Virus record (IMG/VR): IMGVR_UViG_3300048837_000439
Span: 1 to 38,071 of that record
Origin: a virus
Length of the DNA stretch: 38,071 nt
Reading direction: 5' to 3' (one strand)
Shown one piece after another: positions 136 to 27,293 of this stretch. The stretch's first letter is position 1; each line of letters opens with the position of its first letter. The position numbers were made by a program, and so were the translations under genes. The notes under the pieces are model-generated. The model saw nothing but the letters and a program-made list of their open reading frames with translations, did not search any database and was not told where the DNA came from.

Positions 136-1269
136 AACAACTAAAGGGGGTTGTCCTGTTATCAAAAAGAAATCGTCTGCCGTTGCAGGCGTTCCGCTAC
201 CACCAAACTCACCATCTTCGCCCTGCCAAGACCACAAAGTGACCTCCCCATCGTATGTAGCACGTATAAATCTTTTAATGCTCATATCCCACGGATCGCC
301 ACCATCACCAACGTTAAACGCATCTTCAATGTCGGTAGTGCCAATGTCTCCAAGTTCAATAATAATATCATCGGGGATTGTGTCGTAAATACTTTGACCG
401 TCCGGTCTGAAGTAACTCGGATATACAACAGCACCCAGACTTCCACCAATAGTAGTTACTCTTGGGATTACAGCATAGTACCTATCTATTACACCGTCAT
501 TATAAGGCGTAGTTGTTCTTAACACTATTCTTTGGTCTGGCGCACAAGTAAAAGCACCGTATGTGATTACCGCATTTGCAATATATGTTAGTTCGTCAAC
601 GCCATCGGTATCAATTCCGACAAGGGAAAGATTGTATATTTTTTCCCAAGCGTTCGTTAATGGCGCATCCCCAAAAGGAATGAAATTTTGTGGAATAGTC
701 TGTATTTCCCCAACACCATATAGTCCGTCATCACCGCTAAACACATAACTACCTTCGGTTGTTTCAAATATCGTAGTTCCTACAACAAGATATGGCCCAG
801 AACCATTCACATAGGTATGGATGTCAGCCCCCATAATATTACCTAAGTCAAACGTAGTAGCCTCATTTATGCCTATAATGTTTGGCGTTAAAATAATAAA
901 ATCAGTAGGCAAAACAGGAGTGCCGGAAGCACCATAAGTTCCCTCGCCTTTTTTAAGAATGTACTGTCTTTTTTTATAATAGTTTGGCGCACCAAGTCCA
1001 CCTCCGTAAGGGTCAATAAAAGATATTATCTGCGTTGTGTTTCTTGCCTTTATAATGGGCGCAGATGCGTTTACTGAATTAGCAACTTCCACAAGTTCAC
1101 TATCTCCACTTTCGATATGTGCTACAATACGCTCTTGAGCCTTACCAGTTCCTGTAAGATAGCTGTAAAGCTCTGTAAAATTGTCGTTTGTCTTATTGAA
1201 CGCCAAGCGAATCTTCTCCGCGCTTGGGTCATTATCAAAAGTTCCATTATTTACTATTTGCTGTGACAT
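1..1269 (-). CDS. Tail protein with leucine-rich repeats, N-terminal 423 residues
   Basis: The ATG at 1267-1269 overlaps the stop of the upstream gene (TAATG). The frame stays open to base 1, so the gene is cut by the window edge. Across the repeated ends it continues in frame into 37936-36512 and makes one 897-residue protein. The first 40 residues hold the segment DNDPSAEKIRLAFNKTNDNF, a pattern I know from phage neck, baseplate and fibre proteins (compare 'aFnKiNdNF'). The rest is rich in Gly, Thr, Asp and aromatic residues without membrane segments, as expected for beta-structured virion proteins. Its place after the tail-tip genes and before the receptor-binding candidate suggests a tail-tip or fibre component. 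The structural role is inferred; the reading frame is seen. Confidence 0.75.
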   Translation of the reverse strand, partial: MSQQIVNNGTFDNDPSAEKIRLAFNKTNDNFTELYSYLTGTGKAQERIVAHIESGDSELVEVANSVNASAPIIKARNTTQIISFIDPYGGGLGAPNYYKKRQYILKKGEGTYGASGTPVLPTDFIILTPNIIGINEATTFDLGNIMGADIHTYVNGSGPYLVVGTTIFETTEGSYVFSGDDGLYGVGEIQTIPQNFIPFGDAPLTNAWEKIYNLSLVGIDTDGVDELTYIANAVITYGAFTCAPDQRIVLRTTTPYNDGVIDRYYAVIPRVTTIGGSLGAVVYPSYFRPDGQSIYDTIPDDIIIELGDIGTTDIEDAFNVGDGGDPWDMSIKRFIRATYDGEVTLWSWQGEDGEFGGSGTPATADDFFLITGQPPLVVQQNNIVTIKTVLDTDLATLDGAGLATYYNAKTPAILKQGYESWVV

Positions 1270-4551: not shown

Positions 4552-7500
4552 TATACTTTTTTGCCTTTGAATTTAACACGATTATTCATTATAACCGTTT
4601 TTGTAAGTCCTTTTTGAATATAAGATGTAAAACCGTTTTTATCTATTTCAATAACGTTATCACCACCAGCACCTATTGCCCTTCTCATTGCTGTTTCCAC
4701 TTCCATAGCCGTTAATCCTTTTTCTTTTAGTGCTGGCATATAGGATATACCGTTATTTTCTAATTGTGCGTTAAGACTTCTTTGGAAGTCCGCCTCACTC
4801 TTGTAAACGTCAGAACCTTTTGGAAGATTAACAAGCAAATTCTTTCCTTTTGGTCTGTGAACCCCACCATCAGGAGTAGTAACAACCTCTTGGCGTTTCT
4901 CGTTAATCATTGCAGTTCCGCCTTCAAAATCACGTACCCCTTTTTCAAATTGTGGTATCGGTTGTGATGCTATTATAGCTAATTGAGCAAGTCCAAGTGC
5001 TGAAATGATTGCACCCGCGACAATACCAGCAGGCCATCCAAGTTCTGCAAATGTCTTTATAACCGAAGTGGCAATGTTTATATTTGCTTGAATTATAGCG
5101 GCATTCTTTTCACGTATAGCCTGTTTTCTCTGAAGCTCTGCTTTTTTACGTGCAAATCTTTCTTCTATGGCAGCTCTTGCGGAACTACTTTCACCCGCAT
5201 ATTCTATTTCAACGTCTTTTTGCGCTTCAAGTTGTTCAATACGTTGCTCCATTTGGTTTCTTTGCGCTGAAATAAGAGCGTTCAAAGCATCAACCGCCAA
5301 AGCCCCAAAAGTTTCAGCGGCTTCTCCGGCATCTAAGAAACCATTTTTTATTCCATCAAATAAATCCCTTGTCGTTTGTTCTTGAATACCCAATGTATTT
5401 CCAAGACTTACAAAAGCATCTTCTATTTGTTGTTCTGCAAATGCAGCATCTCTCGCAGCCTTTATTTTTAATGCTGCCTGTTTTAACAGTTCTTCATTTT
5501 CTTTTTCTAATGCCTCTGTATTGGCTTTTGTGCTTTCAAGTTCTTTTTTAGCCGTGGATTTTAGCCTATCGTCAATAAATTTATTTATACGTTCCTTTTC
5601 TTTCATCATTTCTTCCCATTCCTTTAAAACGGAAAGCACCTTTTCGGTTTCTTTTCTGTATTCCTTTATTTTTTTGGTAACGCCTAAAATTGAATCCCTT
5701 TCTTTTTCTAATTGCTCTATTTTTCTTTGGCGTAAACGAATCCCCTCAATATCGGTAGTATTTAGCTCCTGTATTTCGTCATTTAGTGCGCTAATTTCAG
5801 AAGATATTACGGTCAAAGTCCTTCTTACTTTTTCCGATTTACCACCATCACTATATAAATAAGAAGTCCAATCCTTTGTTTCATCGGTTGCATTCGTCAT
5901 TTCTTCCGTTAATGCAGTAATAGCACCCCTTAATTTATTTACTGAAGAATATTGGGCTTTTAAGGCTATGATATTGGCCTCAATAGCATCTTTGTTTCCA
6001 GTTATTTTATTAGCGGAATCTTCAAACCAATTAGGAAGTGCGCTCCATTGGGTAAATGCGTTTCCTATCAAAGTAAATCGCTCGAATAATGTTAAATTCC
6101 CGCCTAAAGCATCCTTCATTGAATTTAATGAATCCGTAATACCATTAAGATAAGAAGCTCCCAAACCTGAAAGCCATCCAAAGAATTTAGAGAATACACC
6201 TTCTCCGTCTTCAATAGTCAAAACCAAGTTATCCCAAGCAACGCCAAATGTCTTTATTTGGTTTGTCATTTTGGTATTGGCTGTATTAAACTCACGTTCG
6301 GCAGCACCAGCACTATTAGCCACTTCATCCAAAGCTGCGGAAAGAACCGGATAACCCTTTGTGGCTAAAGAACCTAAAACACGAATATCCCTAACACCAT
6401 CAACTCCTAATAATTGTAATTGCTCTTGAACACTTCCGCCACTTTCGGCAACACCGTTCAATCCTTCAATCATAGCGGTTAAGACACCCGCAGAATCTTC
6501 ATCAAAACTCTTTTTCAATTGTTCCGCACTTTGCCCTGTAAGCTCCATTATTTGAGCAACTCCTTTCCCTGTCCGAATAGCATTTTCCATTAAACCAAGA
6601 GTACGACCAATTGCGCTACCCGCTAATTCTTGCTCAATTCCCAATGCTTTTGTTGCAGTTCCATAAGCTAAAACTTCTTGTCTACCAAACTTATACATTG
6701 CTGTATTTTGTGCAACACTTGTGGAATTTCCTAAAATCTCATTTTCAGTAGCTGCAAAGTTGTTTCCTAAGTTTACAATTTCATCAGCAAAATCCTTTAC
6801 ATTTTGAACGCCACCATCGGTAAGTGTCAGCAATCGAGCTATATTCGCCCCACCTTCTTCACCTCTAATATTAGAAGCTGTTTCAAGCATTGCTAAAGCC
6901 TCTGCAAATTGTAATAGGTTCTTACTACCCTTAACTCCCAATTGACCTGCAACCGTTGCATATTCCAATAAAGCAGGAGTTCCCACCGTTGTTAAATCAC
7001 GTGAAAGCTTAACAATATCATCCCCAAATTCTGAAAGCTCTTTTTCTGACATCCCCGTTGTCTTGCCAACGTTCTTTAATCCACTGTCAAATTCAAGTAC
7101 GGTGTCTTTATTGCCTTTTATGAGTAAAAATAACCCGCCTAAAGCAGCAAGAGCCAATCCAACTGGCGTAACAAGAAACGCCATTGTAGCACGTCCGAAA
7201 TTAGCCAATTGGGTTCCCAATGTTTTTAACCCACCACTACCTGAAATTTCCTGTAATGAAGTTCCCATCATCATAAGTTGGCTATTCACTTGTCCTAAGA
7301 TTGGATGAAGATTGGCAACTCCATCAGCATAGTTACCGACATTTCTTTGGTGAAGCCCCAAAGAAGAATCAATATCCTTAATCCCTTTGTCTAATATTTT
7401 AGTTTGCCGGGTTAGATTTGCTGAACGTTTTGCCAATCTGTCGTATGCTTCGGTGTTCTTTTTTCCTTGCCTTTCAAGCCTGAACATTTCAGCAGCGACA

Positions 7501-24079: not shown

Positions 24080-24235
24080 TTAGTGGGATTGAATTATCCC
24101 ATTCATTTTTAGATATGGGAGCATCCTATGCTGTTTGAAATCCTGTAACTGTGTTTCGTTGAGCATATCAAAAAGTTCCAATATTTCCGATTATACTTTT
24201 TTGTTCTCAACTCGTTTTTTTGATTATTTAGTCAT
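24080..24235 (-). pseudogene. Frame coupled to the primase stop, broken by two TAA codons
   Basis: ATG at 24233-24235 overlaps the primase-helicase stop (ATGA). The frame MTK is followed by TAA (24224-24226), then SKKRVENKKV, TAA (24191-24193) and SEILELFDMLNETQLQDFKQ plus 16 more residues to the final TAA. The later part looks protein-like (amphipathic helix). The coupling implies an intact ancestral gene of about 51 residues. It may be decayed, or the TAAs may be read through; see findings. Confidence 0.4.
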
Positions 24236-26514
24236 AAACCTAATTCCTTTTTGTATTTATAAAGTGCCTGTGTCGTTACTCCTAATTGCTCTGAAATTTC
24301 CTTAATGTTTATTTCTGGATTTTCCTTATACAGCATTTCAAATTTTTCCTTATTGGTTTTATTCTCATTCTTTTTAATCACCTTTTTTATCTCAGCAACA
24401 GCAATACTATCTACTTTAATTTTCTTTGCCATTGCTATAAAATACTTGCTTAACTTTTCAGCTTTCAAAATACTATCTTTCGATATAAAATTCAAATCGT
24501 AATCCCCTTTTCCAATTCCATTAAATACGTGTATCAATAATGCAAACCTCGGTATGTAGGATTTTTGTTTCGGCAACATAGACTTCATATATTCATTTTC
24601 GGTATCTGAATTTTGTGTTTCGGTTATTTCGTTAAATATCCTAATCCATTCTTTTTTTGATTCATTATTGAATTTTAAAATATGTGGTTCAATAACGCCA
24701 TCCCTATCCCTTTTTAATGCTTTGAATTTAATAGTTTCATAAAAACTAACTATTGTGTCGTGATACCATTGAATTGTATTGTAATCCATTTCTTCCTCGT
24801 TATATTTATCCACTTCCAAATCGGGATATGACAATAGCATCCTATCCATAAAACCATTGTCTTTATTTTCTTCGGTGTAGAATGTATTAAATATACTTGG
24901 TTGAATACCTCCCAATATTGGTATCATAGGACTTGCAACAAACGAACCAGCACGAGTAATACGATTAAGGTTTACGGACTTTCCACTCCAAGTAGATAGC
25001 CAAAATTCCAAATCTGAGCCATGTTTGTATTTATTCATATCCTTAAACCATCCTGCAAGTTCATCTTTAAAAACCCCTACTGAATTGTCATTTTCTTGGT
25101 GCAAAGAAATTAAGGCTTCCATTGTTATATCATTAGCTATAAACTGTTTTTTTAAAGGCTTTGTTGTTTCTGGGTGTTCTTTTTTTTCCTTTGCCGTTAA
25201 ACTTTCGTAATATTCATATTTTTCATATTCCTTTATGTATTTTGATATTTCCCTATTGTTCTGTTTTTCCAAAGGAAATATAATATTTGATATTGATGGT
25301 GTTTTACCTATTCCAGCTTTTCCAACTACTGCCATCCAAACCGTACCTATTTCATTCCATCCTTTTTTAATTTCAATCTTCATTGAGTTACCCAAACAAA
25401 GTGAAATTAACCAAATCAAAGAGCATCCCATATAATCTACATTACTGTTTAGGGTTGCCGAACATTCAGAAATATAAGTTTGTATCGGTTGTGGGAATAT
25501 ATCAATAGGAAATTCAAGGTCTTTTTTATTGATTTTAATATTTACTTTTGGTTCATTTTCCTTTCGGACTATTCTACTTCCATAACCGTCTTTATAGGCT
25601 TGCCTTGTAGCCTCTGAAAAATCATCATTAAAATATTTTCGAGCGTATGCACTAAAAGCAGAATATTGTTTTTCAGCTTGATAAATAGTGCTACTGCTAA
25701 AAAGGTACATTAAATCCTCATCTTTGTAAATATACCCGCTATGCGCGCTTTCGGCATTGTGGCGTTTGATAATATATTTATTGTTCAGATTTCTGACTAT
25801 TGTAAAATCTTCGCTTACAACATCCCATACTTTATTTTTTGCGTTAAAATCATCCCACGGCTTTATATCTCCGTTATTGGTTTGATATTCTTTTTTGACC
25901 TTTACGGGTGCATCTTCTTTTACAGGTTCTTTGTAATCATAAGTATTACAAATACTAAATAATATATCCCTGTCCTCATCACTTACAAAATCAATATCAT
26001 TATAAGTTTTTTCATTTAGGAAATTATCATAGACAAAAACATAACCACCATTTCCACGGGTTTCAAGAATAGCCTCTTTATGTCCTTTAAGTTTTGCGAG
26101 TTTATTGTTTCCTTCTACTCTTTTTGTTTTATAAAGAATATGAAAACCTGCGTTCTTTGTTTTGGTTATTGTAAATTTTTCGTGAAAGTCCAAAATATTA
26201 TCTTCCATAAACGAAATAAATTCATCCCACCATTCCTTCTGCTCTTTTGCTGTGCTGAAAACCTTTAAATCAACATCAACACATTCAAGGTAATTAAATC
26301 CAGTTACAATACCTATATGCTCCGTTGCTGGTATCTCTGAACCATCCTGTTTTTTTATACCTCCATTATAGGAATAGTTCTTTTCAAATTCAGATTTGGT
26401 TATCTGTTGCGTTTGGTATTTCTTCCACGGAAAGTTAGGTATTTTATTATTTGATACGGTTATAAGCGAAAACCCCTCATCCAATAATCGTAAGCATCTT
26501 TGAAGTTGTACCAT
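24232..26514 (-). CDS. Primase-polymerase with DUF3987 helicase-like domain
   Basis: 760 residues. The N-terminal region (1-~200) looks like a primase-polymerase (Prim-Pol) domain: ECVDVD gives the metal-binding D80/D82 pair, with H125 in GFHILYK. Residues about 335-650 are DUF3987-like with Walker A GKAGIGKT (398-405) and VGVFKDELAGWF, a Walker B-like acidic segment. The last 25 residues (EISEQLGVTTQALYKYKKEL) form a helix-turn-helix, maybe to bind the origin iterons. The protein probably primes and unwinds DNA at the candidate origin just upstream. No family-B or A polymerase is present. It starts at ATG 26512-26514, after a long structured leader. Confidence 0.85.
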   Translation of the reverse strand: MVQLQRCLRLLDEGFSLITVSNNKIPNFPWKKYQTQQITKSEFEKNYSYNGGIKKQDGSEIPATEHIGIVTGFNYLECVDVDLKVFSTAKEQKEWWDEFISFMEDNILDFHEKFTITKTKNAGFHILYKTKRVEGNNKLAKLKGHKEAILETRGNGGYVFVYDNFLNEKTYNDIDFVSDEDRDILFSICNTYDYKEPVKEDAPVKVKKEYQTNNGDIKPWDDFNAKNKVWDVVSEDFTIVRNLNNKYIIKRHNAESAHSGYIYKDEDLMYLFSSSTIYQAEKQYSAFSAYARKYFNDDFSEATRQAYKDGYGSRIVRKENEPKVNIKINKKDLEFPIDIFPQPIQTYISECSATLNSNVDYMGCSLIWLISLCLGNSMKIEIKKGWNEIGTVWMAVVGKAGIGKTPSISNIIFPLEKQNNREISKYIKEYEKYEYYESLTAKEKKEHPETTKPLKKQFIANDITMEALISLHQENDNSVGVFKDELAGWFKDMNKYKHGSDLEFWLSTWSGKSVNLNRITRAGSFVASPMIPILGGIQPSIFNTFYTEENKDNGFMDRMLLSYPDLEVDKYNEEEMDYNTIQWYHDTIVSFYETIKFKALKRDRDGVIEPHILKFNNESKKEWIRIFNEITETQNSDTENEYMKSMLPKQKSYIPRFALLIHVFNGIGKGDYDLNFISKDSILKAEKLSKYFIAMAKKIKVDSIAVAEIKKVIKKNENKTNKEKFEMLYKENPEINIKEISEQLGVTTQALYKYKKELGL

Positions 26515-26538: not shown

Positions 26539-26586
26539 TCCCGCTAACTTTATTTTTACGGCTAAGCAAAGAAGGTGTTAACGGGA
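26539..26586. terminator. Two-sided terminator-like hairpin before the primase gene
   Basis: TCCCGCTAAC (26539-26548) pairs with GTTAACGGGA (26577-26586) over 10 bp, one wobble, with a 28-base loop. Six Ts follow on the plus side (26588-26593) and six on the minus side (26533-26538). It lies between the promoter candidate at 26641-26666 and the primase ATG, so it could attenuate the primase transcript or terminate transcription from the right. Confidence 0.6.
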
Positions 26587-26640
26587 GTTTTTTACGGGTT
26601 GCCCCTAAAATAATATTTTACATTCCTTACTTAGCCAAAG

Positions 26641-26684: not shown

Positions 26685-26965
26685 TTGCAACTGCCTTGCA
26701 ACTACTTGCAACTAATTTGCAACCAACGTTTGTAGTACTGGCGTGGGTTTAAGTACGATTTGCAACCGAGTTGCATACTTTTTTTTTAAAATAATTTTTT
26801 ACTTAAATATTTTTACAACTTTATTTTATGCAACTTTGCAACCAACTTAGTTGCAAGTACTGTTTTTATAGGGTCTAACAACGTTTTAGGGGTTGCAAAC
26901 AGTTGCAACAGTTGCAAACGAGTTGCAAGCACAAAAAACCCCATCCAATCGGACGGGGCTTGCAA
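26685..26965. repeat. TTGCAA iteron cluster, candidate replication origin
   Basis: Twelve exact copies of the palindrome TTGCAA (starts at 26685, 26696, 26706, 26717, 26760, 26836, 26851, 26893, 26903, 26912, 26923, 26960) plus two near copies (TTGCAT 26771, ATGCAA 26828). Spacing within the groups is 9-11 bp, about one helical turn, so they face the same side of DNA. An AT-rich stretch (about 26777-26830) lies between groups, as in iteron origins with an unwinding element. The block sits between the SSB-like gene and the primase gene. This stretch holds no gene; origin function is inferred. Confidence 0.7.
26933..26958 (-). terminator. Terminator after the recombination operon
   Basis: On the minus strand CCCCGTCC (26958-26951) pairs with GGATGGGG (26946-26939) around a GATT loop, followed by six Ts (26938-26933). 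It lies directly after the SSB-like gene and separates it from the iteron region and primase gene. Confidence 0.9.
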
Positions 26966-26981
26966 TAATCGGGGGTAAATA

Positions 26982-27293
26982 CTAAAAAGGCAGGTCATCC
27001 TCCTCCTCGTTTGTTGTAACTGGTTCTGCATTGTGAACCTCTTTTTTCTTTGCCACGGTTATTTTTCCATCAGTCCAAAAGGTTTTACCATTTCCGATAT
27101 AAAACTTTTGTTTTTTTACTTCACGTTCTTCTTTGCTCTGGGAAACATAAGCGGAAATATTTTGGTCGTAATCATTAACTTCATCATTTATTTACAAAGT
27201 TATTTCGATTCCCTTTTCATTTTTTTTATCCAATGTTTCAAATAAAGTTCTAAGGGTTTCTGTTTTAATGTAAAGTGAATTTAAGCTACTCAT
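26982..27293 (-). pseudogene. SSB-like protein gene broken by an in-frame TAA
   Basis: The ATG at 27291-27293 opens MSSLNSLYIKTETLRTLFET through 33 residues, then TAA at 27192-27194, then 69 codons in the same frame (INDEVNDYDQNISAYVSQSK ... FYIGNGKTFWTDGKI) ending EEEDDLPF. The acidic tail with DLPF is the hallmark of single-strand binding proteins (partner-binding tip). A single TCA to TAA change would explain it. Whether a read-through product, an error or a true pseudogene is unknown. It follows the exonuclease gene by under 10 bases. Confidence 0.65.

Follow-up and report, generated by a model that had tools for sequence, protein, structure and literature searches.

Twelve exact copies of TTGCAA lie within 281 bp (positions 26685 to 26965) of the viral DNA analyzed here, and the question raised by this locus is what such a cluster does beside a primase-helicase gene. 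The whole stretch, hereafter called the window, covers positions 1 to 38,071 of IMG/VR record IMGVR_UViG_3300048837_000439, and its recognizable tape measure and major head proteins mark it as a tailed phage. From sequence comparisons we propose, with a probability of roughly 85%, that the array is the replication origin of the phage and is predicted to be bound by the primase-helicase through the helix-turn-helix (HTH) domain of that protein.

TTGCAA was counted 33 times in the whole window against 22.4 expected, and thus the excess corresponds to the cluster. The densest 281-bp stretch held 12 copies, whereas the maximum was 5 in 200 simulated order-1 Markov windows; in 20 simulations, any 6-mer with at least three different letters reached only 4 to 5 copies. 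The sites belong to a wider palindromic motif, GTTGCAAC, which appears as TTGCAAC in the left outer group and mostly as GTTGCAA in the right outer group. The groups follow one another as 4 sites, 43 bp, 2 sites, an AT core, 3 sites, 42 bp, and 4 sites (Table 1). Around a mirror axis at 26804.5, 12 of 13 sites have a partner within 2 bp, a degree of symmetry matched by 0.36% of 5000 gap permutations.

All 12 exact copies listed in the original prediction were found at their positions, as were its two one-mismatch copies (TTGCAT at 26771 and ATGCAA at 26831) and its AT-rich block with two groups on each side. Its count of twelve holds for the stretch but not for the array proper, which consists of 11 exact copies and the two degenerate ones: the copy at 26960 to 26965 lies 37 bp off the array at the edge of the terminator stem of the SSB-like gene (26961 to 26936), and it is probably tied to that terminator instead. 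Likewise, the proposed spacing of 9 to 11 bp between starts within groups is correct for the outer groups but not for the right inner group, where the starts are 5 and 15 bp apart. The region had rightly been called noncoding; the 72-aa leftward open reading frame (ORF) at 26813 to 27031 is out of frame with the SSB-like gene that it overlaps. The best inverted arms in the array region (28 nt, 79% complementary, 101 nt apart) are attributable to the TTGCAA sites. GC skew, a measure confounded here by gene orientation, showed no switch at 26.8 kb.

Table 1. Coordinates of the array, its neighboring genes, and the domains of the primase-helicase in the window.
Feature	Position	Strand	Remarks
Primase-helicase P0001, 760 aa	24232-26514	-	Prim-Pol + DUF3987 + C-terminal HTH
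Prim-Pol (PF09250)	residues 9-171 of P0001		Pfam
DUF3987 (PF13148)	residues 359-699 of P0001		Pfam; fold like MCM AAA+ helicase
C-terminal HTH of P0001	helices 721-731, 737-744, 748-757		Structure model
HTH-coding part of primase gene, proposed iteron-binding domain	24235-24354	-	Residues 721-760
Primase leader	26539-26637	-	Possible pseudoknot ending in terminator-like U-run
Outer group 1	26685-26722		Four TTGCAAC: 26685, 26696, 26706, 26717; 10-11 bp apart
Spacer 1	26723-26759		43 bp from start to start, or about four turns of the helix
Inner group 1	26760-26776		TTGCAAC 26760 and degenerate TTGCAT 26771
AT-rich core, putative unwinding element	26777-26830		Gap 92% AT
Inner group 2	26831-26856		ATGCAA 26831, TTGCAA 26836, TTGCAA 26851
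Spacer 2	26857-26892		Start-to-start 42 bp
Outer group 2	26893-26928		Sites 26893, 26903, 26912, 26923; 9-11 bp apart; mirrors outer group 1
SSB-like gene terminator	26936-26961	-	Outlying TTGCAA 26960-26965 overlaps its edge
SSB-like gene	26982-27293	-	C-terminus EEEDDLPF; upstream of array
Exonuclease gene	27905-27294	leftward	PHROG exonuclease

The genes around the array run leftward, and the order from right to left is the exonuclease gene, the SSB-like gene with its terminator, the array, a leader bearing a terminator-like hairpin, and the primase-helicase gene. An in-frame TAA (27194 to 27192) occurs after about one third of the SSB-like gene, at a place where the relative L003 carries a sense codon; the TAA may be a real nonsense codon, a sequencing error, or a site of read-through.

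A Pfam scan of the primase detected only Prim-Pol, DUF3987, and HTH_11, the last below its gathering score (21.5 versus 25), and no initiator domain of the RepA_N or Rep_3 type. In an AlphaFold model made without templates, the third helix of the three-helix HTH (residues 748 to 757) is the recognition helix. The Prim-Pol domain matched the pRN1 primase (1rni) as the second Foldseek match (E value, 1.6e-6). The structure comparison covered mainly residues 338 to 702, for which the best rows were MCM helicases (e.g., 7pfo_6, with Z 16.9 and 3.7 Å over 261 residues at 12% identity); this indicates a common fold and does not imply a common function. A search of solved structures by sequence gave no matches, and none of 25 records of named phage isolates or 17 plasmid records covered 80% of the primase.

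Relatives of the primase were taken from viral contigs with five queries and confirmed by tblastn, with at most 80 of 321 to 398 confirmed stretches per scan, and three further loci came from genome contigs (one Psychroflexus, one Bacteroidetes, and one Sphingomonadaceae). After removal of duplicates there were 115 loci, the window among them, and 93 had full flanks. An array of about 250 bp adjoins the primase gene in 91 of these 93 loci, either upstream or starting at the stop codon. By a coordinate rule, the densest 7-mer cluster (at least 7 copies) stands beside the primase in 86 of the 93, among which L049 is ambiguous; the cluster overlaps the primase 3' end in four more (L045, L055, L058, and L065), an adjacent cluster of 5 to 6 copies is present in L044 and L293, and one fully flanked locus (L292) has no array. 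The ambiguous array consists of AGCGTTG repeats (21 copies; 17-base consensus) located about 1.1 to 0.8 kb 5' of the primase and is unlike the other arrays.

The layout is conserved as well. Exactly four groups were found in 72 of 101 loci, and in these 72 the core averages 88% AT and spans a median of 63 bp from start to start, compared with 71% AT and 45 bp for the spacers. Site spacings over the 101 loci peak at 9 to 11, 42 to 43, 54 to 55, and 63 to 64 bp, all near whole helical turns, and a half-array usually has 4 to 7 sites. Downstream-type loci, in which the array starts at the primase stop codon, share this arrangement of four groups and an AT core. This conservation of position, group number, and core composition lends support to the origin-like reading in the original prediction.

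The same prediction had called for a search for the motif itself beside related primase genes. A comparable array is indeed there, but its repeat sequence switches between lineages while the layout stays, giving more than a dozen motif types. Consensus motifs include GTTGCAA (in the window and L002), GTTTAAA, GTTCACA, GTTCAAA, GTTCAATT, GTGTAAA, GTGTAAC, GTGTACAC, GTGTGCAA, and AAGTGTGAAA, as well as TGTCGCA, TGTCACA, TGTCAAA, and TATGCAAA. Four distant relatives that were added later (the L550-L552 group, L553, L554, and L555) all carry arrays just 3' of the primase gene, and every one has a motif of its own.

We compared motif distance with primase sequence distance in nine-residue segments, using the divergence of residues 10 to 689 as the control, in 101 loci (14 of the 115 were left out: 12 truncated or array-less loci, L049 with its ambiguous array, and the fragment L170). 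Residues 748 to 756 ranked first of 698 segments, with a partial rank correlation of 0.605 against 0.057 for the median segment, the underlying pairwise distances being mutually nonindependent. The nine top segments all start at 742 to 750, and the best segment outside the HTH, around 479 to 487, scored 0.404. Among single positions, 753 ranked first of 631, and 756, 750, 748, and 749 were within the top nine. Furthermore, in close pairs the helices differ by 0.066 if the motifs match (171 pairs) and by 0.399 if they do not (32 pairs).

A simple rule describes part of this relationship: arginine at residue 748 goes with GTGT and any other residue with GTT in 88 of 88 classifiable loci, the other 13 of 101 being unclassifiable. 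The motif trait changes 12 times on the tree, and all seven supported independent pairs agree with the rule (P = 0.0156, an optimistic value because the rule was picked after the data had been inspected). The distant relatives named above have, as judged by eye, no arginine at the matching place and no GTG motif. A second rule, linking residue 753 with GTGTAAC, was dropped; it held in only 23 of 30 cases and failed the independent-pairs test.

Natural exchanges point in the same direction. The primase bodies of L075 and L078 differ at 0.7% of residues, whereas their helices and motifs are SRKQIQRY with TGTCGCA and SKRQIYNY with TATGCAAA, respectively. DNA identity between the two is mostly 90 to 100% per bin over the gene, drops to 25 to 48% across the array and the final codons, and is back at 97% beyond. 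L080 and L093 show the same pattern, so that in these two pairs identity is mostly 87 to 100% per bin over the primase and 25 to 55% over the HTH end and array, followed by recovery. In a pair with the array upstream (L295 and L293), the array and the HTH end diverge and the DNA between them is 88 to 100% identical; this case is less clean, since the region downstream of the gene diverges too. Together with the covariation, these exchanges favor the C-terminal HTH of the primase as the candidate binder, as originally predicted.

We considered whether the array might instead be an operator, through which the primase or another phage protein represses or activates the primase operon, with no origin function. 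Upstream-type arrays, the window's included, have the ssb terminator on one side and the primase start on the other, as this explanation would have it, and iteron arrays can serve as both origin and operator. The downstream-type array, however, lies at the primase stop codon, where it has no promoter role for that gene, and yet it keeps the same layout and AT core. We regard a purely regulatory array as unlikely, although at upstream-type loci such as the window the array may regulate the primase promoter in addition.

It is also conceivable that the repeats arose through the action of a host protein or through compositional selection and that shared ancestry accounts for the covariation. Locus pairs are not independent, which speaks for such an effect, but the motif switches between near-identical primases, GTTTAAA recurs with similar helices in distant clades, and the independent pairs agree with the R748 rule; we consider this explanation very improbable. 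To the idea that another protein uses the array for partition or DNA packaging we give hardly any credence. Short helically phased repeats do occur at centromere-like sites, but this array travels with the primase gene and tracks its recognition helix, and no partition gene was found among 20 further window proteins scanned, of 99 listed ORFs.

Returning to the array as a replication origin, the simplest reading is a self-contained initiator, since one chain unites a helicase and a primase with an HTH that is matched to the array. The HTH would dock on each site of 7 to 8 bp, and the spacing of 9 to 11 bp would align the bound proteins along a single face of the DNA. The two half-arrays, which mirror each other and each comprise an outer group, a spacer of about 42 bp, and an inner group, would load helicase rings flanking the AT core; the core would melt, the MCM-like DUF3987 domain would unwind the DNA, and Prim-Pol would prime it. 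We infer physical binding, melting, ring loading, and a bidirectional start, and the mirror layout suggests that the two rings face each other. With 4 to 7 sites per half, one site per hexamer subunit is possible.

Replicons of the P4 alpha type use a superfamily 3 helicase. P4 alpha itself is a single polypeptide with primase and helicase parts plus an HTH-class DNA-binding domain that recognizes origin repeats, according to the available part of PMC4234260. The window protein resembles it in having primase, helicase, and HTH together (with HTH_11 scoring below gathering) and differs in its primase, which is Prim-Pol and not Toprim as in P4 alpha, and in its ATPase DUF3987, of MCM-like fold; the phages analyzed here also show a mirror layout of four groups and a motif that switches, neither of which is described for P4 alpha in that portion of the source. 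ORF904 of pRN1, as presented in the same portion, has a Prim-Pol, a helicase, a C-terminal DNA-binding domain, and an essential element 3' of its gene. It shares the archaeo-eukaryotic Prim-Pol domain with the window primase, but pRN1 relies on a 100-nt stem-loop and has no iteron origin (PMC4234260), whereas the window phage has an iteron array.

The nearest precedent for the covariation, as far as the accessible sections of PMC8263062 go, is RepA and its origin in PLE, satellites of Vibrio cholerae, in which the DNA-binding domain covaries with the origin and the specificity module is swapped between close elements. PLE relies on a RepA_N initiator and three iterons of about 30 bp in a satellite, whereas the phages analyzed here are tailed phages with about 12 sites of 7 to 8 bp and a primase-helicase as the predicted reader. 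Origins of iteron plasmids and PLE RepA likewise place an AT-rich element between short repeats next to the initiator gene, but their RepA_N or Rep_3 type of initiator is not what Pfam finds in the window primase. Fusions of an AEP primase with DUF3987, a predicted helicase, are described for the PrimQH and All3500 families and put both domains in one chain, as in the window primase; the available text of PMC5862659 mentions neither a C-terminal HTH nor an adjacent origin array for them.

In the open-licence literature we found no paper on an iteron origin with a primase in flavobacterial phages, on replication-initiator iterons covarying with a recognition helix, or on TTGCAAC at a phage origin. 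As far as these searches show, the combination of a primase-helicase as predicted reader, a four-block architecture, and many helix-switched specificities is new in phage. By analogy, the system would work like P4 alpha with other enzyme domains, and covariation and module swapping are already known from PLE.

We tentatively suggest, at somewhat below even odds, that in aquatic Bacteroidetes tailed phages the recognition helix and the four-block array form a swappable, fast-diversifying cassette of origin specificity, driven by rivalry over shared origin types and loading MCM-like rings head to head. Such a cassette would account for switches seen where the rest of the primase is about 99% identical between phages, and the simplest cause of switching would be that relatives or satellites with the same origin type steal or block replication. 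The repeats vary together with the predicted gripping part of the copying enzyme, which gives each virus lineage a private lock and key, and the pattern is a possible signature of phage-phage competition over replication. The candidate origin also becomes a testable protein-DNA code, with natural pairs that differ in little but the HTH and the array and a natural data set on how recognition helices change specificity. Besides, origins in metagenomic phages could be sought from sequence alone as a phased 7-mer array beside a primase, and an MCM-like ring at a mirror-symmetric phage origin, if true, would offer a miniature model of how double rings are loaded.

The spacers of the relatives (e.g., L034, L023, and L033) contain further motifs. 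CATTGA occurs in 47 of 130 spacers versus 3.4 in shuffles, and the IHF consensus, which we take to be WATCAANNNNTTR, is present in 36 of 130 spacers (0.68 in shuffles) and in none of 65 cores. It is a possible bending site, and we leave the IHF match as a lead because related loci are not independent. The IHF consensus was not found in the window's own spacers, nor is a CATTGA or IHF-like motif obvious there. DnaA boxes (TTWTNCACA) were absent from the 195 spacers and cores.

The primase leader adjoins the array and is probably separate from it. It may form an H-type pseudoknot with interleaved stems (S1-S2-S1'-S2') followed by a U-run, with stem sequences that vary between phages. At the score used, the window holds one such pseudoknot, that of the leader. 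Among relatives, the 170 bp 5' of the primase contain one in 31 of 47 loci of the upstream type, 20 of 50 of the downstream type, and 1 of 6 left unassigned, compared with 3 of 309 resampled controls. Rfam gave nothing at gathering score for 10 sources, with sub-threshold, chance-like matches only. The structure is perhaps an attenuator of primase expression.

A reverse search by array pattern failed as a strict test, since many of the matches listed lay in genes or beside other replication proteins; among them, GTTGCAAC and TGTCGCA runs stood beside unrelated proteins and inside genes. It did recover, through the array and not the protein, a relative of 28% identity (L422), whose sites are GTTGCAAC and whose helix likewise contains Gln-Ala. 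Among the matches listed, arrays of GTTGCAAC or TGTCGCA were also seen beside a VapE-like gene (L374), Prim-Pol/AAA_25 (L466), Toprim/AAA_25/HTH_11 (L493), and DUF3987 (L460 and L539), a hint that other replication proteins are likewise accompanied by short phased arrays. Other short-repeat arrays lie just 3' of distant Prim-Pol or DUF3987 genes in L305 (4023 to 4123), in L304 (3240 to 3310), and, at 5561 to 5776 of L309, in Arthrobacter phage Peas, an isolated phage in which the repeat is AGTGACA.
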